This document shows, piece by piece, positions 1-48,331 of a stretch of 64,000 bases of DNA; position 1 is the first letter of the stretch; the number at the start of each line of letters is the position of its first letter. Location of the stretch: IMG/VR virus record IMGVR_UViG_3300037826_000058, positions 55,095 through 119,094 of that record; one strand, 5' to 3'. Under the pieces are notes generated by a model. That model was not told the DNA's origin. It did not search any database and worked only from the letters and a program-made list of their open reading frames with translations. Position numbers and translations under genes: made by a program. The stretch is from a virus.

Positions 1-3000
1 ATGTCGATGTATGGAGAATCTGCTGCATCACTGGTCATTTTGATGTACCCGCTTCCAGATTGACCATAATTGACAACGGCAGTACCACTAGGGAATGTAC
101 CAGCAGTGCCATCCATGCGCTCTACAACATAAGAATGGTAATCGTCTCCCCCAGATTCTACGCTATGAATCTTCAGCCAATTATCAAGCACGTTGGTTCC
201 ATCGAAAGCCTTCATACGCAGTATGTCACTGACCGCAAAAAGCTGTGCGCCAGAAACGGAGTCTTTCACGTCCATACGGAATTGCCCAGAAGCAAGCGTT
301 GTGGTGGTTGACGTGGTAGTTATGCTGGTCGTGGTCGTGGTGGTTGTGGTTGTTGTGGTAGTTGTGGTGCCTGTTGCCACTGGCCCAATGGCGTCACCGT
401 CGTCGTTGGCCCTGATCTCGTCAACGGAGACAGTACCGTTGAAACGCCGGGCGTTTTCTGGTCCTACTACGAAGACATCGGTGCTCTCAAATAGGTTATA
501 ATTCTCCAGCCCAGTAAGGCTCTCCTGAAGCACGTCGTGAATGTAGAAATCCACCTGTCCGTCACTAGCACCGTCAGAACTTTCACGCTGAATATAAATC
601 TCTACGAATTCTTCAACATCAGTGTCGGTCTGATACGATGATGATGATACTGATGAAAGCCCACCATCTTGGTAAGCTGTGACTCTGAGCTTGGTGATTC
701 CAGTGCCTTCGTCTGACGAAGCAAAGATAAAAAATCTCAACAGCAGGTTGACGACCCCACCACTACCATCCCCCTCACCCACCCATATTGGGAAGGACTC
801 GACCAACTGATAATCGCGTATCGTGTCGTGCGGGTGGAAATAGAGCCTGAATCTGAGATCGGCAGAGGGGTTAATGTCCTTCCATACTCGGCAGTCTGTT
901 CCACCATCACCATCACCTAATATTTCCAGTCCATAATTAGTCCCTGCTAGGGCTGAAGAAGCATTTATGCTGATGTCACTACCGGCAGACCCATCCCACC
1001 AATCTGAAACGTTGCCATATTCGTGAGTGATGTTAAAGAGCTCGCCAGATGCAAGGGTTGTTGTTGTGCTGGTGGTTGATGTGCTGGTAGTTGTTGTCGT
1101 TGTAGTTGAGGTTGTGGTGGTTGACGTGGTGGTTGTGGTCGTAGTAGTTGTTGTTGTCGTTGTGGTCGTAGTAAGAGGCCCAATCTCTGTACCAGTAGTG
1201 TTTCCTACGACCTCATCCATATAGAGTGTACCAGATGTTCCCGCGTCGATGCCCCAGATTGGGCCAACCCAGATACCATCAATAACACCAAAAGCATCAT
1301 AGTTGTCGAGATTGGAAATCGTATCTTCAAGTGACCCGTCAACCCACATGCGCAACCTGCCATCGCCAGCAGTGCTATTTGATGCTCTTTCTAAGTGAAT
1401 CTCTACATAGTGTGAAGCATCGGTAATCGTGACCCAGCTTCCGTAATGCTCGGTGTAATCATCTTCTTCAGCATAGGTTCTAATCTGGTAGTCAGAACCA
1501 TTGTAACCCAGTGTTATATCAGCAATCTCGTGTGGAGCTGAGCTACAATGCACCTGGAATGTCCAGAACCATTCATCGGTTCCGAAGGTCATCGAGTTGG
1601 GGTCAATATAGAATCGGATACGCAGGTCGGTTGATGGAGCGGAAAAGTTCTTTATCCCATAGATATTATCTGTGTTGTCTATGAGTATGTTCAATCCATA
1701 ATTTGTACCCGCAAGCGCGGCGGCTGCTGCGACTGTTAGGTCACCCCCACCCGTTTCTGTAACGTCATAATCTGATAAATCACCCTCTTCGTGATCTATG
1801 CAGAATATCGTGCTTGTTGTCGTGGTGGTCGTAGATGTTGTTGTGGTTGTTGTAGTGGTGGTCAGGCTAGTGGTCGTTGTGGAGGTGGTTGTGCTAGTTG
1901 TGCTTGTTGTCGTGGTAGTTGTAGTCGTTGTCGTGGTCGTGGTGGTTGTCGTGGTCGTCGTGGTCGTGGTAGCCTCTCCAATGGAATCACCGCTACTGTT
2001 GGCATATATTTCGTCAAAGTAGTAGCTTCCATATTCGTCCATCGCGCCAGAGCCAGGCTTGCCAAACTTGGCGCTTACCAGAGATGAGCTGCTGTTGCTC
2101 AGGCTTGTTAGGCTTAAATCAGGGCTACCGCTCACGTCATCAACCCAGAGCTTCATAAACCCATCGCCATCACCAGCGTACCAATCTATCTCAATCCAGT
2201 GGGGTTCATCTGTTATATTATGCCAGTATGCCCACCCTCCGGCGCTTTCGTAGATTGCCAAACGATGTGTTGAGGAAGCATAGTCTATTTGCATCCTGAC
2301 AATGCCCGTTCCACCAGAGTTTTCCATTTGGAAAACAGTGTTCTCGTCAAAGTCAATGCTGTTGGGGTCTAGGTAGAAGCGTAATCTGACTCGTGTTTGA
2401 CTGCTGAAATCCACCTGTCCAAACACAACACCCGACCCCGACGGTGCGACATCCATACCATAATCTGTGCTTGCCATGGCTGCCGTGGCATTTGCCGCAA
2501 GCGTACCGTCTGTGGTGTCAGTGGAGTCAAATTCTGAGAGATCACCCTCCTCAAAATCAATATCGAAAAGGGATGCTAGGGTTGTTGTGGTCGTGGTGCT
2601 CGTGGTGGTGGTGCTTGTTGTTGTTGTCGTCGTTGTGGTAGTTGTCGTCGTTGTAGTTGTAGTGCTTGTGGTAGTCGTCGTCGTACTTGTTGTGGTCGTA
2701 GTGGTTGTTGTCGTGGTTGTGGTGGTTGTCGTGGTCGTCGTGGTCGTAGCGATACCTATCTCATCCCCGCTATCATTTGCCTCGAATTCGTCCATGTAGA
2801 ACGTACCAGATGTACCCGTGTCGATACCCCACGAAGGGCCAAAGTTCATCCAGGTAATACCCTCGAATCCAGCGTAGTTGTCTAGGCTGCTTATGCTATA
2901 ATGGAAAATACCATCTACATATAGTCTTACTTCACCGTCTTCTGAGCTAGACGTACCAGCTCTTGAGACCCATACTTCTACATAGTGTGACGCATCACTG

Positions 3001-4616
3001 ATGTTTCTCCAGCTACTGGTGTGATAAGTACCATCATCTTCTTTGGTTCTTGTTGCTATGCTATGTGAACCACTACCACTACTATCGTAGCTCATCAAAA
3101 CCTCTACGAAGTCGTGGTTGTTCGCGTTGGATGAACGAACGAGCACAATGGTAAAGTATTCTCCGTCAGCCATAGTCAAGCTGTTGGGGTCAACATAAAT
3201 TCTGAACCGCAAGTTTTGCGTGTCTACGGTGACATTTTTGCGACCATACATTGTTTCTTGGTCATCAATGACATATTGAACACCGTAATTTGTACCACCT
3301 AGCGCGGCCCCAGCAGCAACGGACATATCACCGCTCGCCGTATCGGCGCTGTCATATTCGCTTAGATCATTACCTTCGTGGGTAATGACAAAGAGTCGTC
3401 CTGTTGGAGCTAGGGTAGTTGTTGAAGTAGTGGTTGTACTGGTGGTTGTTGTCGTGGTGCTGGTGGTCGTTGTACTTGTCGTGCTGACTGTAGTAGTGCT
3501 GGTGGTGCTAACCGTAGTCGTGCTAGTGGTTGTTGTCGTGGTGGTTGTTGTTGTAGTTGTCGTTGTGCTAGTACCGCTTACATACTCATAGGCCCCAATA
3601 TCATAAGCGTACCCTTGGGGGCGAGAATAGTCGTCGTAATCATCCGTTACTTCGGCTATGGTATCACCGCTGTCAATAGCAGGAGAACTAGACTGCAAAT
3701 GATAATCGCTACCCACACTTACAAACTGAGGATTGATGTATTGTGAGTGATCGCCATTGCTGGTGTTGGCAACATATTGAGATACGCTGTAGTAGCTGCC
3801 ACCCCAGTAAATGGGGCTACTCACACCATAATAAATGTTGTAGTCGCTACTGACCTGACCCGTGCTGTGCGAGCCGACCTTCAATCCAATCTGTCCACCC
3901 GTTAGATAAAAAATGTTGTTCTTGATGGTGGCATTGGTCACACCATCGATGCCTGACCCGGCTTCGTAGAAATCAATCGCCACATCGCAATCATAGAAAG
4001 TGTTATTATAAATCTCGATGTCTTGGGCACCATCCGTCATGATCACGCCCCAATGTCCACCTTCGATGATGTTATTGTAAACCTTCAGCCCGTTGACATT
4101 GGTGTCGTGCCAACCGTGGATACTACCAGCGGTCGTGTTCCAAAAGTGGCAGCCCCGGATAGTCACATCGCCTACGTTGTTGCCCCCGGTGTAGATATGG
4201 TGGTCTTGATTGGTGTCGCTTCCGTTGTCGTGCATATCGAGGTCTTCGAGAATGATATGCCATGCACCGTTGTTGAGCAGGATTGCCCCGTTGCCCCACT
4301 GGTCATCGTAGTTCCTAATTGTAAGACCAATGATGTGCAAATAATTCGACTGTAAGTATAGACACTCTCCTATGGAGTTTTGTCCATCGAAGATTGGTGT
4401 TTCACCGGGATAATTACGGAAGGTGATATAAGCACCACTTGTACCATCACCGCTTGACCAATCAGTTCCTCCTTGTCCATAGTACACACCCCCACGCGCA
4501 TATAGAGTGTCACCTGGGCTAAGATATGTTGAGGCGTGCCCAAAGGTTCTCCATGGGTCATTGATTGTCCCGCTTCCACCGTCGTTCCCGCTAGGGGATA
4601 TGTAATAATTAGCCAT
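1..4616 (-). CDS. Giant tail fibre/adhesin, beta-helix plus lectin-like domains on poly-Thr linkers (partial, C-terminus outside window)
   Basis: A single minus-strand frame stays open from the ATG at 4616 to the window edge (about 1538 codons). AGAGG precedes the ATG. Residues 1-347 form a right-handed beta-helix-type domain ending in SRPQGYAYDIGAYEY, typical of choice-of-anchor-Q/pectate-lyase-like proteins. Five Thr-rich linkers follow (about residues 349-402, 623-680, 881-937, 1148-1188 and 1414-1439), mostly runs of Thr with an occasional Ser. They separate domains of about 200-225 residues that resemble concanavalin/LamG-like lectin folds (e.g. DFEEGDLSEFDS, GTSGTFYMDEFEANDSGDEIG). The module period is about 775-825 bp. 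It lies at the distal end of the tail operon, next to three glycosyltransferases, so a receptor-binding fibre is likely. The lectin assignment is from fold-like sequence features only. Confidence 0.85.
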   Translation of the reverse strand, partial: MANYYISPSGNDGGSGTINDPWRTFGHASTYLSPGDTLYARGGVYYGQGGTDWSSGDGTSGAYITFRNYPGETPIFDGQNSIGECLYLQSNYLHIIGLTIRNYDDQWGNGAILLNNGAWHIILEDLDMHDNGSDTNQDHHIYTGGNNVGDVTIRGCHFWNTTAGSIHGWHDTNVNGLKVYNNIIEGGHWGVIMTDGAQDIEIYNNTFYDCDVAIDFYEAGSGIDGVTNATIKNNIFYLTGGQIGLKVGSHSTGQVSSDYNIYYGVSSPIYWGGSYYSVSQYVANTSNGDHSQYINPQFVSVGSDYHLQSSSPAIDSGDTIAEVTDDYDDYSRPQGYAYDIGAYEYVSGTSTTTTTTTTTTTTTTSTTTVSTTSTTTVSTTSTTTTSTTTTTTSTTTTSTTTLAPTGRLFVITHEGNDLSEYDSADTASGDMSVAAGAALGGTNYGVQYVIDDQETMYGRKNVTVDTQNLRFRIYVDPNSLTMADGEYFTIVLVRSSNANNHDFVEVLMSYDSSGSGSHSIATRTKEDDGTYHTSSWRNISDASHYVEVWVSRAGTSSSEDGEVRLYVDGIFHYSISSLDNYAGFEGITWMNFGPSWGIDTGTSGTFYMDEFEANDSGDEIGIATTTTTTTTTTTTTTTTTTTTSTTTTTTSTTTTTTTTTTTTTTTTSTTTTSTTTTTTLASLFDIDFEEGDLSEFDSTDTTDGTLAANATAAMASTDYGMDVAPSGSGVVFGQVDFSSQTRVRLRFYLDPNSIDFDENTVFQMENSGGTGIVRMQIDYASSTHRLAIYESAGGWAYWHNITDEPHWIEIDWYAGDGDGFMKLWVDDVSGSPDLSLTSLSNSSSSLVSAKFGKPGSGAMDEYGSYYFDEIYANSSGDSIGEATTTTTTTTTTTTTTTTTTTTTTSTTSTTTSTTTTSLTTTTTTTTTSTTTTTTSTIFCIDHEEGDLSDYDVTETGGGDLTVAAAAALAGTNYGLNILIDNTDNIYGIKNFSAPSTDLRIRFYIDPNSMTFGTDEWFWTFQVHCSSAPHEIADITLGYNGSDYQIRTYAEEDDYTEHYGSWVTITDASHYVEIHLERASNSTAGDGRLRMWVDGSLEDTISNLDNYDAFGVIDGIWVGPIWGIDAGTSGTLYMDEVVGNTTGTEIGPLTTTTTTTTTTTTTTTTSTTTTSTTTTTTTSTSTTSTTTTLASGELFNITHEYGNVSDWWDGSAGSDISINASSALAGTNYGLEILGDGDGGTDCRVWKDINPSADLRFRLYFHPHDTIRDYQLVESFPIWVGEGDGSGGVVNLLLRFFIFASSDEGTGITKLRVTAYQDGGLSSVSSSSYQTDTDVEEFVEIYIQRESSDGASDGQVDFYIHDVLQESLTGLENYNLFESTDVFVVGPENARRFNGTVSVDEIRANDDGDAIGPVATGTTTTTTTTTTTTTTSITTTSTTTTLASGQFRMDVKDSVSGAQLFAVSDILRMKAFDGTNVLDNWLKIHSVESGGDDYHSYVVERMDGTAGTFPSGTAVVNYGQSGSGYIKMTSDAADSPYID

Positions 4617-4628
4617 ACTTGCCTCTTT

Positions 4629-5312
4629 TTAGTTAGTAGGTCTTAATGTTTCCCAGTTTGTAGGGAGAATAGAAGGGCGCCCTTTATATATTCCCCCTGT
4701 GAGAACGGAGTTTTCTCCGAAATGATAGCAATATACACCTTTGATGTATCCCACCTGGTATCCTAAACGCCTAGCCCAACTGCACATTGTCATTTGCGGA
4801 GCTGTTCCTAAATCATGGCGGTGAGGGGTGCTCATCTGCCTACTGCATTTGCGTCTGATGAAGCTAAAGGTTCCCCCCACCACCTGACACACAACAACAT
4901 CACCACGATCTTCCTTTGTCACACGCTTGGCCCCAGGGTGGTCGAGGGCCATAATGCCTAAATCTTTGTGTTTTCTAATGGTTTGAATACCCTGTGATAA
5001 CCAGTCCGGTTCGACATTAGGGCATAACATGTCATCATCAACATGTACGTAAACTGGTGATGCCCCAATGCGTGACTCTTGCATCAGGTTGTTCATCTGC
5101 CCCTGTTGTTCCTGATGCAACGTGATTGTTTCGAGCACCCCCTGTTGAAACAGACTAATTACATATTCTGTTGTACCGTCGCTTGATGCGTCATCAATAA
5201 TGTGTAGCTTGTACGGTGACTTTGTGCAACGCCTTATGCGATTGAGTGTTCGTTTGAGATAGTCTATACGATTGGTTGTAGTGACAATGATGTCAATTGG
5301 TTCTACACCCAT
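4629..5312 (-). CDS. Family 2 glycosyltransferase
   Basis: A 227-residue protein with the GT-A layout: N-terminal IDIIVTTTNR, the nucleotide-binding IIDDASSDGTTEYV (about residue 38) and the metal-binding HVDDDM (about residue 94). A later WARRLGYQVGYIKG/YHFGE segment fits an acceptor side. It should transfer a sugar from a nucleotide-sugar donor in the host cytoplasm; donor and acceptor cannot be read from sequence. The start overlaps the end of the next glycosyltransferase by 10 bp, and the stop is 12 bp before the giant fibre start. This places it in the tail operon rather than a sugar operon, so the fibre is a candidate acceptor (inference). Confidence 0.85.
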   Translation of the reverse strand: MGVEPIDIIVTTTNRIDYLKRTLNRIRRCTKSPYKLHIIDDASSDGTTEYVISLFQQGVLETITLHQEQQGQMNNLMQESRIGASPVYVHVDDDMLCPNVEPDWLSQGIQTIRKHKDLGIMALDHPGAKRVTKEDRGDVVVCQVVGGTFSFIRRKCSRQMSTPHRHDLGTAPQMTMCSWARRLGYQVGYIKGVYCYHFGENSVLTGGIYKGRPSILPTNWETLRPTN

Positions 5313-5947
5313 CTGCTTTCAAACAACTGTTTGTTATGCACATATATTTCGTGTTGCCCCTTCAACTTCCCCCAGCTGGCGTTACCGACATGATTGACAT
5401 GCCCCACCTTCCGAAAGCGATATCCAGCTTGTTCGATGCGCTCCCACAAATCACGATCTTCAAACATACCCATCTGGTATCTTTCGTCTAGGATACCCAC
5501 ACGATTGATAACTTCACGCCTAGTCATCCACAGGGCTCCGAACATATGCCCCTTGGGGGCCTCCTCAATTCCCACCCTCCGCTTGGGGTCATGGTCTAGC
5601 AGATGCGAACTGATAGCACCAATACCGTCAATCCAAGCATGCTGTGCTTGTTCTATCCAATTATCTAGTATCTCGATGTCGTTGTTGGAAACTACTATCC
5701 AGTGAGAGGAAGATGCTTCTATGCCTTGATTAACCGCTGGCCCATATCCCCTGTTGGTTTTGTTTCTGATGTAAAAATCACTTACCGCTTTCATATAGGA
5801 TATGCCTATAGTGGATGCGTTGTCAACAATGATAATATTGTGCTGGGGGCAATATTCTCTGAAACTGTCAACGCATCGCTTGGTATAACCTAGCAACTCC
5901 CTGTCTATAATCCAGCATGGGATTATGATGTCAGCTCGGTTGTCCAT
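5303..5947 (-). CDS. Family 2 glycosyltransferase (rhamnosyltransferase-like)
   Basis: GT-A protein with IIIVDNAST, a GYGPAVNQGI segment and VVSNNDIEI as the DXD-equivalent, ending in FEDRDLWERIEQAGYRFRKVGHVNHVGNASWG. This arrangement is typical of rhamnosyltransferase-like GT2 enzymes. I place the start at the ATG at 5947 (MDNRADIIIPC), which has GAGGGGG four bases upstream. An in-frame start at 5992 adds 15 residues lacking family character and increases the overlap with the upstream gene. The second of three consecutive glycosyltransferase genes between tail-tip genes and the giant fibre, with overlapping ends that suggest co-translation. Confidence 0.85.
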   Translation of the reverse strand: MDNRADIIIPCWIIDRELLGYTKRCVDSFREYCPQHNIIIVDNASTIGISYMKAVSDFYIRNKTNRGYGPAVNQGIEASSSHWIVVSNNDIEILDNWIEQAQHAWIDGIGAISSHLLDHDPKRRVGIEEAPKGHMFGALWMTRREVINRVGILDERYQMGMFEDRDLWERIEQAGYRFRKVGHVNHVGNASWGKLKGQHEIYVHNKQLFESRWV

Positions 5948-7199
5948 GAACCCCCTCGATAGCGGAATGTAAGTTGTGTCGCCACACCGCATCTAGGCTG
6001 CGTGTAAGCCTTGCCCTTTGATGCGCTTTCATTATGGGGCTGTGTTCCATTTGTCGTTTAATGCACAACGCTACCCAATGCATATAGTCATTGCGGTTGC
6101 CGTACTCGGTTATTGTATCCCCTGGCATACCGTTGTTCAAATTGATGGATGAGCTGAATTTTGCCATTTGTGCATATCCTGCGTATTGATGGAATACAGA
6201 TAGGTCGTAGTTGAGCATCAACCCCATACGTTTCCACATAGCCTCATGCAATATCAAGGGGTCGCTCTCGCTACGCGAGGGGTGTACCATTACGTCACCT
6301 ACTTCCATCAAGTCCATGACTACCCTGTGAGGTACGCTGTATCCTTTGTGGTCAGAGGTAAACAATACAATGTCTCCATAGTCCTCCTTGATTTTTTCAC
6401 GGTAGCGCTTCTTGTCGCCCGCCGTGCTGTGAAAGTCACATATTACCACCTTTACACGCGCCCCCATTTGTTTAAGATGTTCAAATATTTCACAGATAAT
6501 ATGAGGTTGCTTGCCCCGATCTAGTCTACAGGGATAAACAGCGATAATGTCCATTTGCATCAGATCACTATCGTGTACAATTTCTTGTGAAAGGGGGTGC
6601 ATCTCTCCCAAAAAATCAATTGGGTTTGGAATCACCAATACTTGGTCGCGTTCATATCCATACAATTGGCGCTTTCGCTCTATTTCCTCAGCATGCATCG
6701 CCACTAGATAAGAATACGGAAATTGCCCTACCAGCTCTTGCCCTAGTGTTTTGTCTAGTTGCATAACGCGGTCGGGTGTGCCCATGTTGGTTGCGCTGTG
6801 TACCCAATGCAACCAGCGCATATCGGGTCGCTTCTTGGCTATTCTTCTTGCTGCTATATGGTGTTTCCACATATCTGGCTGATAAATCAGGTCGTGCGTC
6901 AAGACTACATTAACATTAGATAGCGCATTCCCCATTTGCTCTTCGATGATGTCTATCTCCTTTTCGCTTTGTTGTGATATAACCTCAACACGGTTTTTAC
7001 CAAAGCGACCAGATTCTATTTTGACAACCTCGGCACCGGGATAGTGTTTTGCATCATTATCGTTGAAATGCTCTCTTACCAGTAATTTATATTGATATCC
7101 TGCACGGTGGAGCATCTTTCCTTGGTCTCGTACCACTCGACACAGCGAGTAAGCGTTATCAAAATTAACGAAATCAGTTACTATTGCTACCTTTTTCAT
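5931..7199 (-). CDS. Family 4-type (GT-B) glycosyltransferase
   Basis: A 422-residue protein with two Rossmann-like halves. N-terminal VAIVTDFVNFDNAYSLCRVV and the mid LVIPNPIDFL linker are visible. The C-terminal half has IIAVYPCRLDRGKQP, then VMVHPSRSESDPLILHEAM, the EX7E-like donor-binding region of GT4 enzymes. It probably transfers sugar from a nucleotide donor. Its stop overlaps the next glycosyltransferase start by 17 bp and its start overlaps the upstream tail gene by 4 bp, so it belongs to the tail operon. Acceptor unknown; the threonine-rich fibre encoded two genes later is an attractive candidate (inference). Confidence 0.85.
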   Translation of the reverse strand: MKKVAIVTDFVNFDNAYSLCRVVRDQGKMLHRAGYQYKLLVREHFNDNDAKHYPGAEVVKIESGRFGKNRVEVISQQSEKEIDIIEEQMGNALSNVNVVLTHDLIYQPDMWKHHIAARRIAKKRPDMRWLHWVHSATNMGTPDRVMQLDKTLGQELVGQFPYSYLVAMHAEEIERKRQLYGYERDQVLVIPNPIDFLGEMHPLSQEIVHDSDLMQMDIIAVYPCRLDRGKQPHIICEIFEHLKQMGARVKVVICDFHSTAGDKKRYREKIKEDYGDIVLFTSDHKGYSVPHRVVMDLMEVGDVMVHPSRSESDPLILHEAMWKRMGLMLNYDLSVFHQYAGYAQMAKFSSSINLNNGMPGDTITEYGNRNDYMHWVALCIKRQMEHSPIMKAHQRARLTRSLDAVWRHNLHSAIEGVHGQPS

Positions 7200-8056
7200 A
7201 TAGTAGTTACCTCATTTTCTAATACCCCAGCCTCAAGTACCATAAACGTTCCTCCAGCCGCGTGTATCTCTTCCTTGACAAAAATGGACGCTCGAAGCTC
7301 GCCCCTGATGGTTACATCATGCAACTCGGCTGTTCCATCAGCGTTGATGCGCATTCCCTTCAAACCACTTGTGAAGTTGCTTGATTGAATACGCTTGTTG
7401 GGGCCATCTATCTGTATCACCGGGGAACCTGTTCCCACAGTTACCACACCATCGACATCCAGTGTGCCTATGTGTCCAGCATTGGCGTCGATAGTACCTG
7501 TTATGTTCGCATTTGTTGCAGTAAAAGCTCCTCCTTTGGTTACTCTAAACGGTGCCGAACCCGCTGTGCTGTGTCCAACCCAGATGCGATATGTGGCATC
7601 TTGAGCGTCTAACCTCACAATATCTGTACCGCTACCAAGCTCTAAATACCCGTCGGAATGTAGCGTGGCATTGTTCTTTGCTAGGTTGTCAGAGTTGATT
7701 GTCCACCCACCGATTGCACCGGCGGTTGCGGTAATTGTACCTGTAATCGTTGCACTTGATGCTACCAGGTTCCCGTCGCTATCTACACGGAAGGGAGCTG
7801 ACGCGCGGGTGGCGTTACCTGCCCAGAACCTCCAATCTGTACCCGCTGTGACCTCGGAATTTAGGCCAACCTGTCCGTTATCTGAAATCAGAGTGTAGAC
7901 GCCAATCTCAAAGCCACCAACATGCCCCCCTAGCAGATTGTTACGACCGCTTCCAGTAACAGCGGTGTAACCACCCGTCTTAGAGCGTGAAGCTACATAG
8001 GGTCGCAATGCATCTACGTCCCCCCTGACATTCCTTTTGTGTGGTCTAAGTGTCAT
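7196..8056 (-). CDS. Tail tip/fibre protein with repeated beta-structured motifs
   Basis: A 286-residue protein with repeats of the type W-G-(x)n-SAPFRV-x-G...ATITGTITATAGAIGG, seen at about residues 75-125 and 150-195. This pattern is common in phage central fibre and minor tail proteins that form trimeric beta-structures. The C-terminal FVKEEIHAAGGTFMVLEAG segment is less repetitive. It starts inside the last codons of the upstream tail-hub gene (4-bp overlap) and precedes the glycosyltransferase block. Probably part of the tail tip or a fibre attachment protein; no enzymatic motif is seen. Confidence 0.7.
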   Translation of the reverse strand: MTLRPHKRNVRGDVDALRPYVASRSKTGGYTAVTGSGRNNLLGGHVGGFEIGVYTLISDNGQVGLNSEVTAGTDWRFWAGNATRASAPFRVDSDGNLVASSATITGTITATAGAIGGWTINSDNLAKNNATLHSDGYLELGSGTDIVRLDAQDATYRIWVGHSTAGSAPFRVTKGGAFTATNANITGTIDANAGHIGTLDVDGVVTVGTGSPVIQIDGPNKRIQSSNFTSGLKGMRINADGTAELHDVTIRGELRASIFVKEEIHAAGGTFMVLEAGVLENEVTTI

Positions 8057-10029: not shown

Positions 10030-11909
10030 TAACTGGTTCCTAATAAGAACTCGGTTCTTGGTCGAGCCTTAATATACACCTTTACTGAACCTTGTGAAAA
10101 ACCATCATCACTATTTGTGCTTGTTATCACAAACCGTTGCATAATATCTGGTTCTATTTGAGGCACTTGTCCTAGTATTGCATAGTGTCCAATGTATCCC
10201 TCAGCCCCGTCTGCTTTCAAGACCATATTCATGGGTACACCGTTTCTTTCATGTATAAAGCATGTTGCATAGTCATCTGGGGCGTTGAATATTGTGTATT
10301 CTTCATCTACGCTTACTAGCAAGAAGAAGTCTGCAGTTACTGTAGCGGCGCTTTCTAAGTTTACTAATACCCTAATGTTTTCTTGATAGTCCACTGCATA
10401 GTCTCCCCCAGGCCATCCCGCTCCCTCTGGAATTAAAGAAACATGGTCGTCTGGATTCATGCCAAAGTAAATAGGCCCAATTGCAATCATTTGGGAGGTT
10501 GTGGAAAGCGATATATTTACTACCTCTGTACTGGCGCTGTCAGTTTCGTCGTAAAAAGCAAAATCATAGTAGGGGCCACTTGTTAAGACCTTTGCTTTTC
10601 CATCTACAGACCCAGACGAAATGCTCATAGGGGCCAAGAGCATGTATGTACCGGGGTACATATCTGGTTGGTTTACAATGGTGGTTTGGTGTGCTTTTAC
10701 TGTTTCCCATGTATTAGGCGAAACGCTAATATCAGTTGCTCCGCTTATATGATAATCGTAACAGTTGTAGTCATTGGCATTTTCTGTAACGCGATAGGAG
10801 AACTTGCCTATATGGTATTCTGTAAAAGTATTGCCTTCTATTACCCAATGTGTTTCCATAGGAGCATCACCTGGAGCACCGTGAACATCGATATATGCTA
10901 CAGCACCACTATCACCGTCGTAGTTTGATATATTGCTTTGACTACACCACGTTGTGTGGCTGTTGCTTATCGCTGTTGAGTTGAATTGCAGATAGCATTT
11001 GTTTACATATACTGTCATGCCAGAAGTAGCCGTTATTCGCAACCTTACATCTTTTTCAGCTGGGACATTTGCACTCAAAGACAGCTTTACACCTTCATCT
11101 GTGGTGCTTGTTGTATCGCTAGTAATATCTGTACCGTCTGTATGGTTTCGCAGGGTCGCAGTGATTGTTCCGCTGTCTGTTGTATAGACATAGGCATAGG
11201 CTACGCACGCTTTTTCAATATCATTGGATGAAATTGTATCACTCTCGATTCCTTCACCGTCTGCATCTGTAGTGAAAAGACCGGCAGTACCGTTGACAAA
11301 AGACGATATTGCTCCAACACCGCTAGTTGTTCTCTCGAATTCTGTGGGGCTGCCCACTTCGTTCCAACCATAGGTGTTTTTGTAGAAATCCGGATTTGTT
11401 AGCTCGTTGTAAATATATTGCCATGCTCCATACCCTAGAGGCTCGGTAATTAAATCAAAGCTTATAGCATCACCAAATTTTACATCTTGGGTTTGCCTGT
11501 TGAAATATTCAAATAGATCAACACCCCCGAAATTAGCATCTATTACAGTGTACCTTGTCCAATTAGTGGCACCCTCTAACTGTATCTCTAAGTAAACCTC
11601 GCTTTCATCTTGGTGGGTTTGATGTCTTCTAGCTCTCTTGATAAGTCGGTTGAGAGTTATCAACTGGTTTGCAATAGCGTCGTCAGAAGAATTGCTTTTG
11701 AGTGCAACCTTCATAGGCCATGTTCGGTTGCCCAACTTCTCTCTAATGATTCTCTCACCATCTTGCCAATCCGATTGGTGATACAAGTGTTGGTGTTCAG
11801 GTAACCCTAAGGAGGCCCCAGAGGCCAGCATCTGAAACCCAGCTCCGGAAGCATCAAAGGAAAGATCAACAGAATCTGTTCCATTGGATATTTTTATTAC
11901 ATCTGTCAT
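10029..11909 (-). CDS. Distal tail (Dit)-like protein with carbohydrate-binding-type insertions
   Basis: A 626-residue protein directly downstream of the tape measure, where siphophages encode Dit. The N-terminal about 170 residues (VDLSFDASGAGFQML ... WPMKVALKSNSSDD ... RYTVIDANFGGVD) fit a Dit-like ring domain. Residues about 190-480 contain jelly-roll-like segments (YNELTNPDFYKNTYGW; TATLRNHTDGTDITSD) resembling carbohydrate-binding modules. The C-terminus (QRFVITSTNSDDGFSQGSVKVYIKAR) returns to a tail-tip type. Dit proteins this large often carry lectin modules for initial adsorption. Family assignment rests on gene order plus weak motifs. Confidence 0.65.
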   Translation of the reverse strand: MTDVIKISNGTDSVDLSFDASGAGFQMLASGASLGLPEHQHLYHQSDWQDGERIIREKLGNRTWPMKVALKSNSSDDAIANQLITLNRLIKRARRHQTHQDESEVYLEIQLEGATNWTRYTVIDANFGGVDLFEYFNRQTQDVKFGDAISFDLITEPLGYGAWQYIYNELTNPDFYKNTYGWNEVGSPTEFERTTSGVGAISSFVNGTAGLFTTDADGEGIESDTISSNDIEKACVAYAYVYTTDSGTITATLRNHTDGTDITSDTTSTTDEGVKLSLSANVPAEKDVRLRITATSGMTVYVNKCYLQFNSTAISNSHTTWCSQSNISNYDGDSGAVAYIDVHGAPGDAPMETHWVIEGNTFTEYHIGKFSYRVTENANDYNCYDYHISGATDISVSPNTWETVKAHQTTIVNQPDMYPGTYMLLAPMSISSGSVDGKAKVLTSGPYYDFAFYDETDSASTEVVNISLSTTSQMIAIGPIYFGMNPDDHVSLIPEGAGWPGGDYAVDYQENIRVLVNLESAATVTADFFLLVSVDEEYTIFNAPDDYATCFIHERNGVPMNMVLKADGAEGYIGHYAILGQVPQIEPDIMQRFVITSTNSDDGFSQGSVKVYIKARPRTEFLLGTS

Positions 11910-14900
11910 GCCGGTTGCCTCCTAGCGTTAATCATGTTGCCAATCTCAACTGATAAATCCTTAGCAAATTGTCTACCAACTTGCATGTTTGGTACTACCA
12001 ACGTACCTACCAGCGATTCATTAAATTGAACTGTGCTGGGAGCGTCGGCTGGTGCTGGTGTAGAAGATGCAACGGGTGCTCCTATTGGTCGTGATGTTCC
12101 CACGCTACGCATCAATTGCCCCATTTCCCGCAACTCATCATTGACCATCGAAACAGCCGTTGCTAACGGTGGGGGCGAGTGCATCTCTAGGTTTTCAGGA
12201 ATGCTACCTGATTGTTGCACCTGAATTCTAATAGTCACCTTGTTTTCATCAGCCCACTTCTTGAGTTCCTTGACCTTCTTTAAGATTTTGGCAAGGGTGT
12301 CTTTTACCCCGTTTAGGGCTGCGCACGTCTCGGCGGCAAATTCCCTAAATAAGTTAAGCAAGTCACCTAGTCTTTCTTCAGCAATCTCTTCAAAGTCGTC
12401 AAACATTACTGGTACAATGCCACTGTCACCTAATAGCTCCTGGCTTAGCGCTTCAAATTGTTGTTGTGTACCAGAAGACCAAGATGCAGTATCTCCCTTT
12501 ATAGTGTCATACGTTTGATTGAATTGCTGTGTTGTTTCTGTTCCCCATTGTGCGGTTGCTTCCCCCGTTGAAGCATACGTACCCCCCAGCTCGCTTTCTA
12601 TGCTACTTGCCATCTGAGGTACAATCTCTTCTGAAATGCGCGTGCTCATTCCAGACATTTGTGCTTCCATACCAACACCGAAATCATCAGTTTCGGTAAG
12701 CCATCTGTTTAGGGTTGCTGACCACCCGCTAAGTGCTTCATCTGTACCTTGGGTTACGTTGGATGTGCTTGCTCCAATATCCTCAAAATGCTTGCTAGCA
12801 ACATCACTTGCTTCACCTAAATATCTGTCAGCCTGAAGCGCATATCGTTGTGCCGCAGCCCCCATTTCGTTTTGCTTTCTGATGTTTTCATCGGCAGCCT
12901 CGGCTACATTGTTGATGTTTAATTCAAAGTCATCTGCCCATTTATTGTACTCTCTGCGAGTTTCCAACATTGTGTCAATCACAAGGTCGTTACTTTTTTC
13001 AAATGACCTGGCAAACTCTTCAAGACCGCTTCCTTGGCCGCCGATCTTTCCCAACCAGTCCGCCACTGATTGAAAACCCTGTGCCATCTTTATAACCGGT
13101 ATGGCAACCAACCCGTGAACTGCCCCTCGTAAGTCAATTATGACATCGCGTGCCCACTCCGCTATCCGCCCCATAACAAGCAAGCCTCTTTGTACAGGGC
13201 TTAATGCGGCATGTAGGTGGGGCCACTTATTCCTGGATTGGTCATCAACCGTTTTGCCCAACAAGGTCATCATGGCTAAAGCAAGCCCCGCCTTGGCACC
13301 AAATAGAGCGGTTGCCCCAGCACCTACAAGCAATACAGTGTTGTATTCCGAAAAGAAGTCTGGGATATTGCTTTTATTTAAGGTCTCGGAGAGATCATTC
13401 CATGCATCCATCATCATAGCAACGTTAGTGTTGAATGATTCCCGTACACGGTTGAAAGGTTCCTGCAATATTTCGCGCACTGTTTGCGCAAATCCCCCCA
13501 TCTTTTTCTTGAGACCCTTGATGACTGATGGGCCACCAGCTGGGAAGTCAAAACCTCGTGTAATCTCTCCTAATTTCTTGGCAGCCCCACCAGCAGCCTT
13601 GGCTGCTTTTTTCATCTTGTCAGCTGTGCTACCAATACCTTCATCAACCTCGTCTATCATACGGTTGAGCATTCGGAACAGCTCTAGCTGTTCTTGGATA
13701 GCACTCTTGCGATTTTCTAGTACATTAACCTGTCTCTCTTGCTCTTTGACCGCCGCTCTAGTGGCTTGTACCTGTTGCAGCTGACCACGAATGGCATCCT
13801 CATCTTTGCCCAATACCTGCATTTCAAATAGAGCTGTCTCTTCCCCTTTGAGCTTGCCTTCCATACGCTCTAAAGCCTTGCGAGCGTCTTCCAGCTTCAT
13901 CTCTACTTGCTTTTCCAGTAATTCAAGGTCAAAGATGCTTAATCCCTTGGCCCAAGATGCAATGGCCGAAACCCCCCATTCCATTAATTGCTTCTTGGGT
14001 TTGGCTTCAAACTGCTTCTTTAGCTTCTGAAGCACACCGCTGAATTGGGGGTCATATTCCTCCATAGCGCCATACCATTCGGCAATGGCATCCATACCCC
14101 AATTGATAATATCTGGTGCAACACGAGGAGGAGACCCAGGGGCCAACCAGTTTTCCAAAATGGCACTGATTGTGTTCATCACGGTGACAATCGCGTATGT
14201 GAAGCCCTCTAGGATACCAACAGCTAAACTACTACCAATATTAGCACCCCAAGACGCTGCGTTTACAGCCCATTCTCCTGCCCTTGTTCCCATTCGCTGG
14301 GCACCATTAGCAACAGCGCTTTCTGCTCCTAAGACACCCTTGGACATACTGTGAGGTAACTCATCGCTTACTTTGTAAAACACATTCATAAAGGATTCTG
14401 CAAAGACACTGGCAAGAGGAATGGTTTTTGTTACAAATTCTCTGACGTAGCCCATCGCGACCGTAAGGGCTGGGCCAAGGGCCATCAATATGTTGTCTTT
14501 GAGATCAACAAAACTAGCCTTAACGGCTCCTGTTTGAAAAGCCAGCAATGCCTCTGTATCACCCATTGCGGCGACTAGGGCTTCACCCTGTCTTAATGCC
14601 TCGTTTAACAACGCTACGGACTTTTGTTGGCGTGACATCTCCTGTGTAGTAATGCCCAATTGCTCAGCGTATTTTTCTTGGGCGTAGTTGAGATCAACCA
14701 TCAAGCCCAGCTGGGCGAAGTACCTGGTATATAGACGCCCAGCACCCATGACGAGAGAGCTTACCATTTTCTCCACGTCTTTACCCATGATGTTGGCAGC
14801 GGCAGTAGCAACCTCAAATACACGGGGTAGTTTAGTTCCCACCTCGGCCCCCATCAAGGCAAAGGCATGGTTAGCCGCCTCTGCCATATCGGTATAGGAC

Positions 14901-15349
14901 ATCATACCCCTAGAAGCGACACGAAGCTTGTTCACAAAGACATCTATATTGGGGGCCATTTCAGCAAAGGCTTGATTGCCGCGTCGTGCAGCCTCTACAA
15001 AACCCTCAAATACAACACGTTTGTTCTGTATAGCACCAATGCTTTCAGATAGTTTATAGAATCCAAACGACAACCCAGCAACAGTGGCGGTTAAACCAAC
15101 CGCTGCTTTCCCGATGGTTTTAAGAGCACCTAGTACGCCCCCAATCAACCCTCGCGTGAGTTTGGTTGCAGCTTGGGCTGCTGTGTTAAAAACCTTGTCG
15201 AATACTGGTCTTAACCCAGCACCTGCTTTACCTATTTTGCTTGCCGCTTTAACTATTTTCTTTAATTGTCTTTTCAATCGTTCAAGATGCTTACTGAAAC
15301 CATCTTTAACGTTGATAGCAATTTGTCGTGCTATTTCACCCTGAGCCAT
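11906..15349 (-). CDS. Tape measure protein
   Basis: A 1147-residue protein between the tail chaperones and Dit, the canonical tape-measure position. It is Ala/Lys/Gly-rich with helical stretches: an N-terminal basic coil (about 1-60), hydrophobic segments near 70-100, a long coiled coil at about 480-560 (EKQVEMKLEDARKALERMEG) and further hydrophobic stretches around 690-760. It sets tail length and is extruded at infection; by the usual length relation it predicts a long flexible tail. No lytic transglycosylase or peptidase motif is obvious. AAGAGG lies upstream of the ATG and the gene overlaps the chaperone GT frame by 14 bp. Confidence 0.9.
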   Translation of the reverse strand: MAQGEIARQIAINVKDGFSKHLERLKRQLKKIVKAASKIGKAGAGLRPVFDKVFNTAAQAATKLTRGLIGGVLGALKTIGKAAVGLTATVAGLSFGFYKLSESIGAIQNKRVVFEGFVEAARRGNQAFAEMAPNIDVFVNKLRVASRGMMSYTDMAEAANHAFALMGAEVGTKLPRVFEVATAAANIMGKDVEKMVSSLVMGAGRLYTRYFAQLGLMVDLNYAQEKYAEQLGITTQEMSRQQKSVALLNEALRQGEALVAAMGDTEALLAFQTGAVKASFVDLKDNILMALGPALTVAMGYVREFVTKTIPLASVFAESFMNVFYKVSDELPHSMSKGVLGAESAVANGAQRMGTRAGEWAVNAASWGANIGSSLAVGILEGFTYAIVTVMNTISAILENWLAPGSPPRVAPDIINWGMDAIAEWYGAMEEYDPQFSGVLQKLKKQFEAKPKKQLMEWGVSAIASWAKGLSIFDLELLEKQVEMKLEDARKALERMEGKLKGEETALFEMQVLGKDEDAIRGQLQQVQATRAAVKEQERQVNVLENRKSAIQEQLELFRMLNRMIDEVDEGIGSTADKMKKAAKAAGGAAKKLGEITRGFDFPAGGPSVIKGLKKKMGGFAQTVREILQEPFNRVRESFNTNVAMMMDAWNDLSETLNKSNIPDFFSEYNTVLLVGAGATALFGAKAGLALAMMTLLGKTVDDQSRNKWPHLHAALSPVQRGLLVMGRIAEWARDVIIDLRGAVHGLVAIPVIKMAQGFQSVADWLGKIGGQGSGLEEFARSFEKSNDLVIDTMLETRREYNKWADDFELNINNVAEAADENIRKQNEMGAAAQRYALQADRYLGEASDVASKHFEDIGASTSNVTQGTDEALSGWSATLNRWLTETDDFGVGMEAQMSGMSTRISEEIVPQMASSIESELGGTYASTGEATAQWGTETTQQFNQTYDTIKGDTASWSSGTQQQFEALSQELLGDSGIVPVMFDDFEEIAEERLGDLLNLFREFAAETCAALNGVKDTLAKILKKVKELKKWADENKVTIRIQVQQSGSIPENLEMHSPPPLATAVSMVNDELREMGQLMRSVGTSRPIGAPVASSTPAPADAPSTVQFNESLVGTLVVPNMQVGRQFAKDLSVEIGNMINARRQPA

Positions 15350-16590: not shown

Positions 16591-17613
16591 TCAGTTGTCA
16601 ATAATGCTCAATTTCCTCAACAGGTATTGAGCGCGGTGGAGGTACGAGTGATTAGCTACAGCGCTTCTCGCGCCTCGACCTATGAGCATTCTATCGTTAC
16701 GTTTTTCATCTCGTATCCATTTTCTCAAGATGCCTTCTAATTCGTTTGGCGTTGCAAAGGGCAAATAGTTTTCCCCAAGCAAATCGCTCAGCTCCGGTAT
16801 TGTATCTTGTGAAGCAATCGTTGCCCCACAAGCCGCTGCCTCGTAAATACGTGGGCCAACAGATTCTCTTCCTGGTATAGTCTCCTGACCTTGAAAATCT
16901 ACGCTTACCCGATCTAAGTTAAGAACTATTTTGGCCCCGTTATAATACTGCGCTGCTTCATCATTCCTCAATACAACATCATCTTGGTTAAAAAATTTCT
17001 TTAATGGACTATCATCTAGTTTCCAGTATCCAAATAACTTGAAGTCGATACCACTCCAATCTACTTGTTCTAGAAAGTGTTGTCTTTCTGGAAAACCACT
17101 CCCTACGAATACCACGTCGCTTCTGTACTTGCTGGATACAATCATAGGGTGATGTATCTCTTGACTGTATGCCAATGGTAGAAAATCTATTCCCATTACT
17201 TCCGCGCTACTAAGGTCATTGGCGAACGTGTGTGTTGCTCTCTCGACTATGTACGAGTTTGTTTTATCTCTATAAGGACACTCCGTAAGTATTGCTACTG
17301 TGGGTATATTCAATCTATGCATCCAGTCCCAAAATATATCGTGAATAGACGTTCCGTCCACGATGAACACAATATCTGGCTGACATTCTACGACCTTAAA
17401 CACTACATCAGCTGTGGCTCGCTCGTATGTTGTTGCCGTGTTGAGACTGGTAGACTGAATGACCTTCTCCCATTGCTCCCAAATTTCTTCATAGTGAATG
17501 TTGGTGCAATGGACGTTGAGCTGTTGAAAGGCTCTAGAATATCCTACAGCACAGTCCCTTGTACTCGCTGCATGTGGTGGAAAGATCAGAGCTACGTGTT
17601 TATTTTGATGCAC
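16591..17613 (-). CDS. CgeB-like glycosyltransferase
   Basis: A 340-residue GT-B protein. It has PDIVFIVDGTSIHDIFWDWM and IPTVAILTECPY in the N-half. The C-half has SDVVFVGSGFPERQHFLEQVDW, KIVLNLDRVSVD and the typical GPRIYEAAACGATIASQ segment followed by LLGENYLPFATPNELEGIL, the pattern of CgeB/spore-maturation glycosyltransferases. It sits alone between tail-completion genes and the tail tube gene, a foreign enzyme inside a structural operon. Likely acceptor is a virion protein or the host surface (inference). Confidence 0.85.
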   Translation of the reverse strand: MHQNKHVALIFPPHAASTRDCAVGYSRAFQQLNVHCTNIHYEEIWEQWEKVIQSTSLNTATTYERATADVVFKVVECQPDIVFIVDGTSIHDIFWDWMHRLNIPTVAILTECPYRDKTNSYIVERATHTFANDLSSAEVMGIDFLPLAYSQEIHHPMIVSSKYRSDVVFVGSGFPERQHFLEQVDWSGIDFKLFGYWKLDDSPLKKFFNQDDVVLRNDEAAQYYNGAKIVLNLDRVSVDFQGQETIPGRESVGPRIYEAAACGATIASQDTIPELSDLLGENYLPFATPNELEGILRKWIRDEKRNDRMLIGRGARSAVANHSYLHRAQYLLRKLSIIDN

Positions 17614-21202: not shown

Positions 21203-21432
21203 TGGTCACTATCCGCCAAGGGGTCGGTGACAGGATTCCCACCTGCTGTTTCCGCGATTGCGTTAGCAATATGTTGTAGCTCTTTAATAGCACCATTGTG
21301 CCTCTCTCTAGCGGCAATAGCCTCGTCTATTTTCTCGTTCAATTGCATAATTGCCATTGTGAGGTTATTGACTTCTTGTTGGTGCCATTCTAAACGTGCT
21401 TTCAACTTGTTGAAAGATGCATCATTTTTCAT
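21199..21432 (-). CDS. Small coiled-coil protein
   Basis: 77 residues, mostly one amphipathic helix (FNKLKARLEWHQQEVNNLTMAIMQLNEKIDEAIAARERHNGAIKEL). It lies between two glycosyltransferases with 4- and 11-bp overlaps. Unknown function; it may oligomerise with a neighbour. Confidence 0.5.
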   Translation of the reverse strand: MKNDASFNKLKARLEWHQQEVNNLTMAIMQLNEKIDEAIAARERHNGAIKELQHIANAIAETAGGNPVTDPLADSDQ

Positions 21433-22075
21433 CTTTCTGTTCCTCCCATGCTCTTATTCCTTCTTCCCGATTTTCTACCCAGTCTCTTTCAGTGATGGAT
21501 TGTGGACGTATGTGTCCGCATTTGATACTGGTATCACACCAGATATTTACCTTTGCTTCTGTACGAGCCTTGAGACACAACCTTAAGTCGCTACCTACTA
21601 ATGGTTGGTCTCTAAACGGCCCCAACTGGCTCCATGGTCTTTCCATAGAAGCCAAAACGCTCCTGTGTATCAATAGACAACCATGCCCACAAGCGCCTAC
21701 TTTGATAAGCTGATTATCTGGATAGTAGAAATACCTTGTCTTGGGCCACTGGTCAATCGGTTCTGTCTGGAATATTGTAGGAAACGCCATGTCACCGCGT
21801 GAAAAGTACAAACCAGTGATAAACCTCTTTCGGTGACTAAGGAGTTTAGGCAAGGCATTGCTGGGTATCTCCATATCAGCATCGATGATAAATACAAAGT
21901 CAGAATCGCCACGCATAAACTCTTCAAGCAAAACCTCACGGGCGTACTCACTTCGCATTCCTACTCGCGCTAGAACGCGAGAGACCACTGGCTGATGAGT
22001 TACTGGCAACAATGTGCTTGTGACAAACCTTGATACGATAATATCAGGAAAGCACACTAAAACGTCAACCTTCAT
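21422..22075 (-). CDS. Glycosyltransferase-like protein (GT-A, IDADM motif)
   Basis: 217 residues: SRVLARVGMRSEYAREVLLEEFMRGDSDFVFIIDADMEIPSNALPKLL with the metal-binding DAD, then RFITGLYFSRGDMAFPTIF, VGACGHGCLLIHRSVL and a C-terminal LRLCLKARTEAKVNIWCDTSIKCGHI. This is the same domain order as the 20477-21202 enzyme, so the two are probably paralogues. Both lie between capsid and neck genes. Donor and acceptor unknown; modification of capsid or tail proteins is possible. Confidence 0.75.
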   Translation of the reverse strand: MKVDVLVCFPDIIVSRFVTSTLLPVTHQPVVSRVLARVGMRSEYAREVLLEEFMRGDSDFVFIIDADMEIPSNALPKLLSHRKRFITGLYFSRGDMAFPTIFQTEPIDQWPKTRYFYYPDNQLIKVGACGHGCLLIHRSVLASMERPWSQLGPFRDQPLVGSDLRLCLKARTEAKVNIWCDTSIKCGHIRPQSITERDWVENREEGIRAWEEQKDEK

Positions 22076-42541: not shown

Positions 42542-42552
42542 ATATCCTCCTG

Positions 42553-47427: not shown

Positions 47428-47502
47428 AAGGCGTGGCAGGAATCGAACCTGCGTTCTTCGGATTCAAAGTCCAATGGGTATACCAACGTCCCCTACACGC
47501 CT
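47428..47502 (-). tRNA. tRNA-Gln(TTG)
   Basis: Anticodon loop CTTTGAA on TTGGA/TCCGA; acceptor AGGCGTG/CACGCCT; T-arm GCAGG-TTCGATT-CCTGC. Confidence 0.87.
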
Positions 47503-48196
47503 ATAACCAATACGCCCAGATGTCTTCTCTACCTGCCTTTTCCCATGTTGCCCCCCATTTTTCTAGGAGGCTCGTCACGTCACCTAGGGTAAAGCCCATC
47601 TGTCTCGTATTAACGTTATGGTGCTCCAAGAGCATCACAGGATGATGCTCCCTGATCGTTTGCTTTCCCCCTCTTAAAACCAATACTTCAGCACCTTCGG
47701 TGTCTATCTTGATGAAATCTGGTGGGGGAACCTCTATATCATCTAATCTTCTTGTCTCTATTTCAACGACCCTCTTTGCCTTAAAACGTAGAGGAGATTG
47801 AGATAGCGTCGCCAGCCCGCTAGCACCGATGTCTTTTGGAACACTCAATCTTGCCTTACCATCTTCATCATATAGAGCAATACAGTATGGTGTTACCCTG
47901 TCTTCTACACCATTGCGCTTTATGTTTTCTAAGAGTATTTCATAGACACTTGGGTTGGGTTCAAATGCAAACACTCTCATCCCAGGATGCAACGTGGTAA
48001 GAAGGCTATAAGAACCTGTGCTAGCCCCCACGTCAACCACTACTGGCTTTTCAAGTGCTACCGTTCTTTGGTAGAACTCTTTCAGGAGACCAGCGTCCCA
48101 AGCTCTTGTCTGGTTGTTTGCCGTGACAAACGACCCACGCACTTGTCTTGTCAATGGATGTACTTTTACTCTATGATTTCCAAAAAGATATGCCAT
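47501..48196 (-). CDS. FkbM-family methyltransferase
   Basis: 231 residues from the ATG at 48196. VVVDVGASTGSYSLLTTLHPGMRVFAFEPNPSVYEILLENIKRNG is the SAM-binding region, and ETRRLDDIEVPPPDFIKIDTEGAEVLVLRGG the conserved FkbM segment. FkbM enzymes O-methylate sugars and similar acceptors. The GGGGG serving as ribosome-binding site lies in the 3' acceptor strand of tRNA-Asp just upstream. Longer in-frame starts would run through that tRNA. It may modify glycans made by the phage glycosyltransferases. Confidence 0.85.
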   Translation of the reverse strand: MAYLFGNHRVKVHPLTRQVRGSFVTANNQTRAWDAGLLKEFYQRTVALEKPVVVDVGASTGSYSLLTTLHPGMRVFAFEPNPSVYEILLENIKRNGVEDRVTPYCIALYDEDGKARLSVPKDIGASGLATLSQSPLRFKAKRVVEIETRRLDDIEVPPPDFIKIDTEGAEVLVLRGGKQTIREHHPVMLLEHHNVNTRQMGFTLGDVTSLLEKWGATWEKAGREDIWAYWL

Positions 48197-48198
48197 AG

Positions 48199-48270
48199 CG
48201 CCCCCAGCGGGATTTGAACCCGCAACATCGGTTCGACAGACCGACATTTTGCCAATTAAACTATGAGGGC
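48199..48270 (-). tRNA. tRNA-Asp(GTC)
   Basis: Anticodon loop CTGTCGA on TCGGT/ACCGA; acceptor GCCCTCA/TGGGGGC with G73; T-arm GCGGG-TTCAAAT-CCCGC. Confidence 0.9.
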
Positions 48271-48273
48271 TTA

Positions 48274-48331
48274 TCCCCCTCGATGGCATCCCCTACATAC
48301 CCACATTCTCCAACTAGACCACCGAGGGGGC
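48274..48331 (-). other. Truncated tRNA-like element
   Basis: 58 bases closed by the perfect stem CCCCCTCG/CGAGGGGG. A D-arm-like GGTCTAGTTGGAGA follows the 5' strand, but there is no T-arm consensus and only a poor middle hairpin. It sits exactly where a tRNA gene would, between tRNA-Asp and tRNA-Met. Either a tRNA remnant or a minimal tRNA mimic. Confidence 0.5.

Follow-up and report, generated by a model that had tools for sequence, protein, structure and literature searches.

The stretch of viral DNA analysed here, hereafter the window (64,000 nucleotides, positions 55095-119094 of the 119,094-base record IMGVR_UViG_3300037826_000058 of an uncultured virus), opens with a gene for a putative tail fibre whose domains are joined by linkers of almost pure threonine (Thr). 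The gene lies on the minus strand, with its ATG at 4616 and a frame open over 3..4616 (the 5' part, 1538 of 1856 codons), and leaves the window to end at record position 54140. An earlier note, made from the letters of the window alone, had read this as one open frame of more than 1500 codons with five linkers of about 26-58 residues; in the whole record the gene encodes 1856 amino acids (aa) and passes through all five linkers with zero in-frame stops. The genomic context, which that note had missed, includes three glycosyltransferase (GT) genes between the tail-tip and fibre genes, as well as more sugar genes elsewhere.

Composition of the linkers

With the edges set here, the linkers measure 24-56 residues, all on the minus strand: linker 1 at 3414..3572 (53 aa, 42 Thr), linker 2 at 2580..2747 (56 aa, 52 Thr), linker 3 at 1809..1970 (54 aa, 47 Thr), linker 4 at 1056..1172 (39 aa, 34 Thr) and linker 5 at 297..368 (24 aa, 21 Thr). 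Thr accounts for 196 of their 226 residues, the remainder being Ser and, rarely, Val, Leu or Ile, much as first described (nearly all Thr, rare Ser), and the longest pure Thr runs reach 22 residues. Since Thr constitutes only 7% of the window part of the protein outside the linkers, these runs are far above chance. The module period, a linker plus the domain following it, is 777-825 bp, in agreement with the 775-825 bp estimated earlier.

All four Thr codons occur in the linkers (ACA 64, ACC 63, ACG 43, ACT 26), in proportions that do not differ from those of the rest of the fibre gene (p 0.46) but depart from Thr codon usage in seven neighbouring genes (p 6e-5). Autocorrelation of third bases over lags 1-15 showed no clear excess over shuffles, the top lag, 9, being equalled in 79 of 1000. 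Mixed codons without periodicity are evidence against simple codon slippage, as the earlier note had argued from the use of all four codons. Third bases compared between linkers match at 0.279, against 0.276 expected, and Thr has therefore been retained while synonymous sites were randomised, save for a trace of duplication: nine identical codons stand near the starts of both linker 2 and linker 3 (nine or more in 2 of 300 shuffles). Because of these shared codons and the paralogy of the domains D1 to D4 described below, the modules of the fibre likely arose by duplication, which had been suggested from their period.

It is very improbable, in our view, that the repeats are an artefact of assembly or sequencing, or the product of microsatellite expansion at the level of DNA. 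Low-complexity DNA does generally assemble badly, and the nine codons common to linkers 2 and 3 may be read in this sense, but 1856 codons pass through five linkers without a stop or frameshift, the codons are mixed and aperiodic, and coding Thr runs are found in many other viral contigs.

Domains of the fibre protein

The N-terminal domain (348 aa, 3573..4616, minus strand) appears to be of beta-helix type and ends in a choice-of-anchor Q motif at about 3582-3704 (NF041518, E 2.4e-11, 43.7 bits against a cut-off of 25, residues 305-345). A single-sequence model of this domain was weak (predicted local distance difference test, pLDDT, 47.8) and beta-rich, and a Foldseek search with it gave no match with E below 0.06. 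The top rows, non-significant, were mostly polygalacturonases and other proteins of beta-helix type, with phage tailspikes lower. Choice-of-anchor Q proteins carry a C-terminal cell-surface sorting signal; no sorting motif was recognised when the fibre translation was read by eye, and more domains follow the motif.

Four domains separated by the linkers follow on the same strand: D1 (2748..3413), D2 (1971..2579), D3 (1173..1808) and D4 (369..1055). They are paralogues, with 29-47% identity to reference rows. D3, modelled with D1, D2 and D4 supplied as an alignment, was predicted as a jelly roll (pLDDT 73.8, predicted template modelling score 0.76), and D1, D2 and D4, as its paralogues, are assigned to the same type. 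At E <= 0.001, Foldseek returned 105 matches to the D3 model in PDB and 108 among the viral proteins of BFVD, with template modelling scores to the query of about 0.3-0.6 among the matches listed. Those listed from PDB were chiefly alginate lyases, neurotoxin binding domains, the thrombospondin N-terminal domain and laminarinases, while those from viruses include proteins of concanavalin-like and LamG type. The description "lectin-like", given before to the repeated domains, is thus correct at the level of the predicted fold (concanavalin/jelly-roll) for D3, the domain modelled.

Sequence profiles were less informative. For the whole fibre protein, no Pfam family rose above its cut-off, with nothing in the jelly-roll region, and PHROG gave no match at E <= 0.01; Pfam Mucin (PF01456) scored 16.7 bits, under the curated cut-off of 34.7. 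An NCBIfam scan of D1-D4 gave zero matches, and the four domains, searched as a profile against PDB, gave nothing below E 0.15. No close relatives of the fibre were found in IMG/VR viral contigs. Among 50,697 phage records six matched it, with 26-36% identity that is confined to the beta-helix region.

Tail position and adjacent glycosyltransferases

Reading towards the fibre on the minus strand, the tape measure gene (11906..15349; phrog_167, E 1.8e-6) is followed by two large proteins without family match, then by a tail tip or fibre protein (7196..8056; PF09327, E 2.6e-5, with PHROG tail fibre families), GTc (5931..7199, GT4-like; PF00534, E 2.3e-6), GTb (5303..5992, GT2; PF00535, E 5.1e-12), GTa (4629..5312, GT2; PF00535, E 2.7e-12) and the fibre gene. 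From the tail tip to the fibre the gene ends overlap or almost touch, GTb overlapping GTa and GTa standing 12 bases from the fibre start. This position, behind tape-measure and tail-tip genes on the same strand, fits the role of tail fibre assigned by the earlier note, and we regard the product as the putative tail fibre of a tailed phage.

Near the fibre gene, L002:9651-12977 on the minus strand (record G000) encodes another large protein, of 1108 aa. When read by eye, its sequence shows apparent domains separated by short STTTTLPP-type Thr linkers; it matches no Pfam family over cut-off.

Glycosyltransferases near threonine runs in other viral contigs

Runs of 14 Thr codons form at least 120 stretches in IMG/VR, 98 of 120 passing a coding filter. 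A first set of 50 contigs was retained once two single-codon runs (L008, L121), all contigs shorter than 20 kb and three near-duplicates (L107, L110, L120) had been removed. Controls of at least 20 kb comprised 45 of 92 random contigs and 35 poly-Pro/Gly contigs from 80 listed of 120. A second set for replication, found with a Ser-interrupted Thr pattern, held 41 new contigs of at least 20 kb from 80 listed rows, and a collagen-like control held 38, likewise at least 20 kb, unused before and from 80 listed rows. GT2 presence was defined as PF00535 at E <= 0.001.

Where poly-Thr contigs bear a GT2 gene, it tends to lie near the Thr run. Distances of at most 1 kb were found in 8/32 such contigs and of at most 5 kb in 16/32 (8.0 expected, P 0.0012), under a null of uniform placement that ignores the clustering of accessory genes and with some contigs related; the second set alone gave 6/13 within 5 kb (P 0.048). 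Around collagen-like runs the corresponding counts were 0/12 and 3/12 (3.2 expected), and in random contigs 0/8 and 1/8.

Two glycosyltransferase families recur beside Thr-run genes. The 85 GT2 frames from all sets were clustered together with the four GTs of the window, leaving out GTe and extra matches in the contigs G143 and G145. One cluster of 11, which we named PTG, came entirely from poly-Thr contigs, themselves the source of 49/85 frames (P 0.0014). Ten of its 11 members lie within 3 kb of a Thr run, compared with 4/21 for the other GT2-bearing poly-Thr contigs. The cluster contains some redundancy (L372 and L624 score alike, L034 and L077 are close), and seven aligned members share 33-83% identity. 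At the level of loci, without a length filter, we compared 228 poly-Thr loci (including 22 that do not pass the coding filter) with 327 controls (92 random, 116 poly-Pro/Gly and 119 collagen-like). Among poly-Thr loci 13/228 scored above 150 bits with a PTG profile, among controls 0/327; when one of each near-duplicate pair is removed, the 11/226 that remain differ from all controls together (p 4.6e-5) and from the 119 collagen-like loci alone (p 0.019). Relatives of the GTc of the window occur in six poly-Thr loci (L413, L341, L098, L396, L418, L041), or 6/228 vs 0/327 control loci (p 0.0046; dereplicated 5/227, p 0.011). A two-row GTc alignment searched against viral contigs found two records, identical over the first 17 kb compared.

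The best PDB matches of PTG were a beta-1,3-GlcNAc-transferase, a chondroitin synthase, a glycosyl transferase and SunS, and the GT matches cover the N-terminal part only. A kinship of PTG with polypeptide GalNAc-transferases, considered because of a resemblance in motifs, was left unsupported by the PDB search, none being so named among the 28 sequences at E <= 1. When GTc, its L413 relative and the PTG members L034, L112 and L076 were searched against the 50,697 phage records, zero matches were obtained at E 1e-5. As none of the five GT queries matched, a model phage is absent from that collection.

Gene order

In 18 of the 19 loci with PTG or GTc, the GT lies downstream of an open reading frame (ORF) with a Thr/Ser run, on the same strand. 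None of the 19 has such an ORF downstream of the GT or on the opposite strand, and the remaining locus, L370, has none at all by the definition used. The distance from the stop of the Thr ORF to the GT frame is -13 to 782 bases in 15/18 (L076, 1765; L035, 2043; L114, 4416), and all six loci of the GTc family show this order, at 0-782 bases. In L112, L413, L098/L418 and the GT2 of L341 the first GT start codon stands 3-18 bases past the stop of the Thr ORF; L341 carries the GT2 first, then GTc. The 18 Thr ORFs themselves are largely dissimilar: apart from the duplicate pairs L338/L363 and L098/L418, similarity was seen only for L034/L077, L114/L372 (36%, 70 aa) and L098/L341 (69%, 77 aa).

As a separate observation, the GT open frame begins right after the Thr-run stop, in the same reading frame, in L112, L413, L098 and L341. 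Read-through into a fusion of Thr run and GT is conceivable there, but start codons stand just behind the stop.

Bacterial relatives of PTG

Searched against 84,980 species genomes, the PTG alignment gave 85 loci, of which the best 80 were taken and 79 used for a neighbour test. As judged from record titles, they belong to alpha-, gamma- and deltaproteobacterial groups, Actinobacteria, Acidobacteriota, Bacteroidota, Thermomicrobiales and others. Counting as Thr-rich an ORF with at least 12 Thr in 40 residues, the ORF directly before the PTG relative was Thr-rich in 10/76 cases, vs 5/398 ORFs at least three places off (p 1e-5). With another definition of the PTG ORF, Thr-rich neighbours numbered nine before and three after, 7/9 of the former on the same strand; this difference between before and after, evaluated with denominators from the first definition, is not significant (p 0.13). 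Most bacterial PTG loci have no Thr-rich neighbour.

Weighing the association

We favour phage-encoded O-glycosylation of the poly-Thr linkers, which the genomic associations above make reasonably probable. What the earlier note had guessed from composition now has indirect support from the GTs next to the fibre gene, from the sugar genes and from GT families that recur near Thr-run genes elsewhere.

Several results count against this reading. Firstly, the presence of GT2 as such is not special to poly-Thr contigs. In the first set it was found in 19/50 poly-Thr contigs vs 8/45 random (p 0.04; length-stratified odds ratio 3.5, p 0.025) and 6/35 poly-Pro/Gly contigs, with a DNA methylase control family equal between poly-Thr and random contigs (7/50 vs 5/45) and GT4 presence not significant alone (11/50 vs 4/45). 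The second set did not match this difference (13/41 vs 12/38 collagen-like), so GT2 presence was dropped as an argument while proximity, order and family identity were kept. Overall, 32/91 poly-Thr contigs have GT2 and 59/91 have none, though a contig may be a fragment. A Pfam scan of the immediate neighbours of Thr runs found PF00535 in 3/114, too sparse to be of use; among 142 control neighbours, for which 25 of 74 families were listed, two other GT-like families appeared, each a single time.

Secondly, the recurrent families touch only part of the material. PTG or GTc occurs in only 19/228 poly-Thr loci. The PTG profile has no match at E <= 1 in this phage (the window and L002-L004), and hhalign of GTa and GTb to PTG returned probabilities of 3.8 and 0.7. 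GTa, GTb, GTd and GTe, searched across poly-Thr and control loci, showed no link to Thr-run loci, and the GTc family is not significant against collagen-like loci alone (5/227 vs 0/119, p 0.17). The gene anatomy of the PTG and GTc loci, which strengthens the constant order elsewhere, exposes a reversed one in the window, where GTc, GTb and GTa precede the fibre gene. Thirdly, families and clusters were defined after part of the data had been seen, several contigs are related, and most controls are not centred on tail genes.

The many poly-Thr contigs without GT2 would suit linkers that are plain, unmodified spacers, selected as a flexible, soluble and protease-resistant tether, with the GTs acting on something else; linkers of other compositions can, as a rule, space domains equally well. 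We think this rather unlikely, given that near-pure Thr has been kept while synonymous positions were randomised and that Thr-run genes repeatedly have a member of one of two GT families next to them, in constant order.

Alternatively, the GTs and sugar genes may modify the host surface (by receptor change or superinfection exclusion), the DNA of the phage or a different virion protein, for instance capsid or tail tube, their adjacency to the fibre reflecting the habit of accessory genes to gather near tail genes. Targets of this kind have precedents, passages of PMC12619734 reporting phage GTs for DNA and for serotype conversion and citing glycans at the C-termini of mycobacteriophage capsid and tail tube; the frequency of GT2 equal to that in collagen-like contigs and the placement of the window GTs ahead of the Thr-run gene point the same way. 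Yet GT2 tends to lie near Thr runs and not near collagen-like ones, neither PTG nor GTc occurs in any of the 327 control loci, the 119 collagen-like ones included, and bacterial relatives of PTG also tend to follow Thr-rich genes. We hold such other targets to be unlikely.

A possible route to glycosylated linkers

Under phage-encoded O-glycosylation, the protein would form a long fibre of modular build at the end of the tail, with a beta-helix-type domain followed by four lectin-like jelly-roll domains on mucin-like poly-Thr linkers. The GTs of the same gene block, GTc foremost and then GTa and GTb, would decorate the linkers with O-linked sugars in the cytoplasm, ahead of assembly. The phage itself encodes a dehydrogenase, an epimerase, a sulfotransferase and FkbM methyltransferases that could supply nucleotide sugars and their tailoring. 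The sugars may keep the linkers extended, soluble and protease-resistant, and the binding domains would therefore stand apart and engage surface glycans jointly. We infer, from gene content and position, the action of the enzymes on the linkers, the identity of the sugars, their mechanical role and the presence of the fibre in the virion.

The genes in question all lie on the minus strand: a UDP-glucose/GDP-mannose dehydrogenase (58327..59637; PF03721, E 3.5e-35, with PF00984 and PF03720), a sulfotransferase (57354..58142; PF13469, E 3.4e-16), an NAD-dependent epimerase/dehydratase of nucleotide sugar type (55946..56992; PF01370, E 1.5e-39; PF16363, E 1.9e-23) and two FkbM-type methyltransferases, one at 50940..51548 (PF05050, E 2.1e-20) and one at 47501..48289 (PF05050, E 4.5e-21), the latter possibly acting in sugar O-methylation. 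A further methyltransferase gene lies in the same phage region. GTd (16591..17613; PF13524, E 1.3e-18) stands within the structural gene block, and GTe (21422..22075) is a weak GT2-like gene (PF00535, E 1e-4, 22.7 bits, slightly under the Pfam cut-off). With dehydrogenase, epimerase, sulfotransferase, methyltransferase, FkbM and GT genes present, the phage carries much of a glycan-building kit.

The remaining genes of note in the window, likewise on the minus strand, encode a subtilase-family protease (36651-37913; PF00082, E 4.6e-43), a C5-cytosine DNA methylase (41132-42577), an N6/N4 methylase (30922-32115), a DUF7788/DUF2828 protein with a weak VWA-like match (45604-47019), of a family known mainly from eukaryotes, and a Mu-type portal (61789-63840; PF06074). 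The closest counterparts of this portal among phages, at 31-36% identity and 57-59% query coverage, come from a faecal phage and from Arthrobacter phages. At L002:914-3784, on the plus strand, a ribonucleotide-reductase-like protein has an apparent intein when its translation is read by eye.

Relation to known glycosylated proteins

Virion glycosylation by mycobacteriophages was reportedly described by Freeman et al. (2023, Cell Host Microbe), with phage GTs linked to structural proteins. The system proposed here, predicted from genes, is similar in tying phage GTs to the glycosylation of a virion structural protein. The mycobacteriophage glycans cited in passages of PMC12619734 and, for the capsid, of PMC11256854 sit on capsid and tail-tube C-termini; here the fibre's poly-Thr linkers would be the substrate, and the five GT queries matched no phage record. 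Phage-encoded virion glycosylation is thus already known, and poly-Thr fibre linkers would probably be a variant of it.

Mucins and mucin-like domains possess long, extended Thr/Ser-rich stretches that are substrates of O-glycosylation. The fibre linkers are likewise long and Thr/Ser-rich; unlike mucins, they contain no Pro and little Ser, belong to a bacterial virus, are accompanied by enzymes of GT2 and GT4 type, and fall below the cut-off of the Pfam Mucin family. Cellulase Thr/Pro linkers and serine-rich adhesins also present glycosylated, low-complexity stretches of hydroxy amino acids, and the likeness extends to their position between carbohydrate-binding modules (such binding being predicted for the fibre). 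They are, however, Pro- or Ser-rich and not near-pure Thr, and are not phage fibres. Collagen-like phage proteins resemble the fibre in having a repetitive stretch within a viral protein and a recurrent GT2 cluster in their contigs. They differ in their Gly-Pro-X repeats, in the GT cluster involved and in GT2 being not especially close.

That collagen-like cluster is an observation in its own right: seven of its 10 members come from collagen-like contigs (L585, L586, L588, L590, L592, L593, L594), which hints at cognate GTs for collagen-like phage proteins.

A survey of low-complexity regions in prokaryotes and phages (PMC6821194) ties, in the passages concerned, Ser/Thr-rich regions to polysaccharide binding. 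Literature searches on Thr-rich linkers, phage virion glycosylation and mucin-like fibres returned no poly-Thr phage fibre or such GT pair in the titles and abstract openings of the matches listed.

Significance

Poly-Thr linkers are ordinary enough as spacers, and their interest here comes from the enzymes that accompany them. In its widest form our proposal is tentative, and we would place it somewhat short of probable: uncultured phages may carry a dedicated module for mucin-type O-glycosylation, composed of a poly-Thr fibre or surface protein and an adjacent cognate GT (a GT2 of the PTG family or a GT4-like GTc), usually directly downstream. A pair of Thr-rich gene and PTG exists in bacteria of several phyla too, and may thus represent an unrecognised system of protein O-glycosylation on homopolymeric Thr. 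Few phages are known to have glycosylated virions. If the proposal is true, such modules would make glycosylated phages recognisable by sequence in metagenomes, and would supply candidate enzymes which glycosylate bare Thr runs and a testable reason for the occurrence of these runs in many proteins of uncultured phages.

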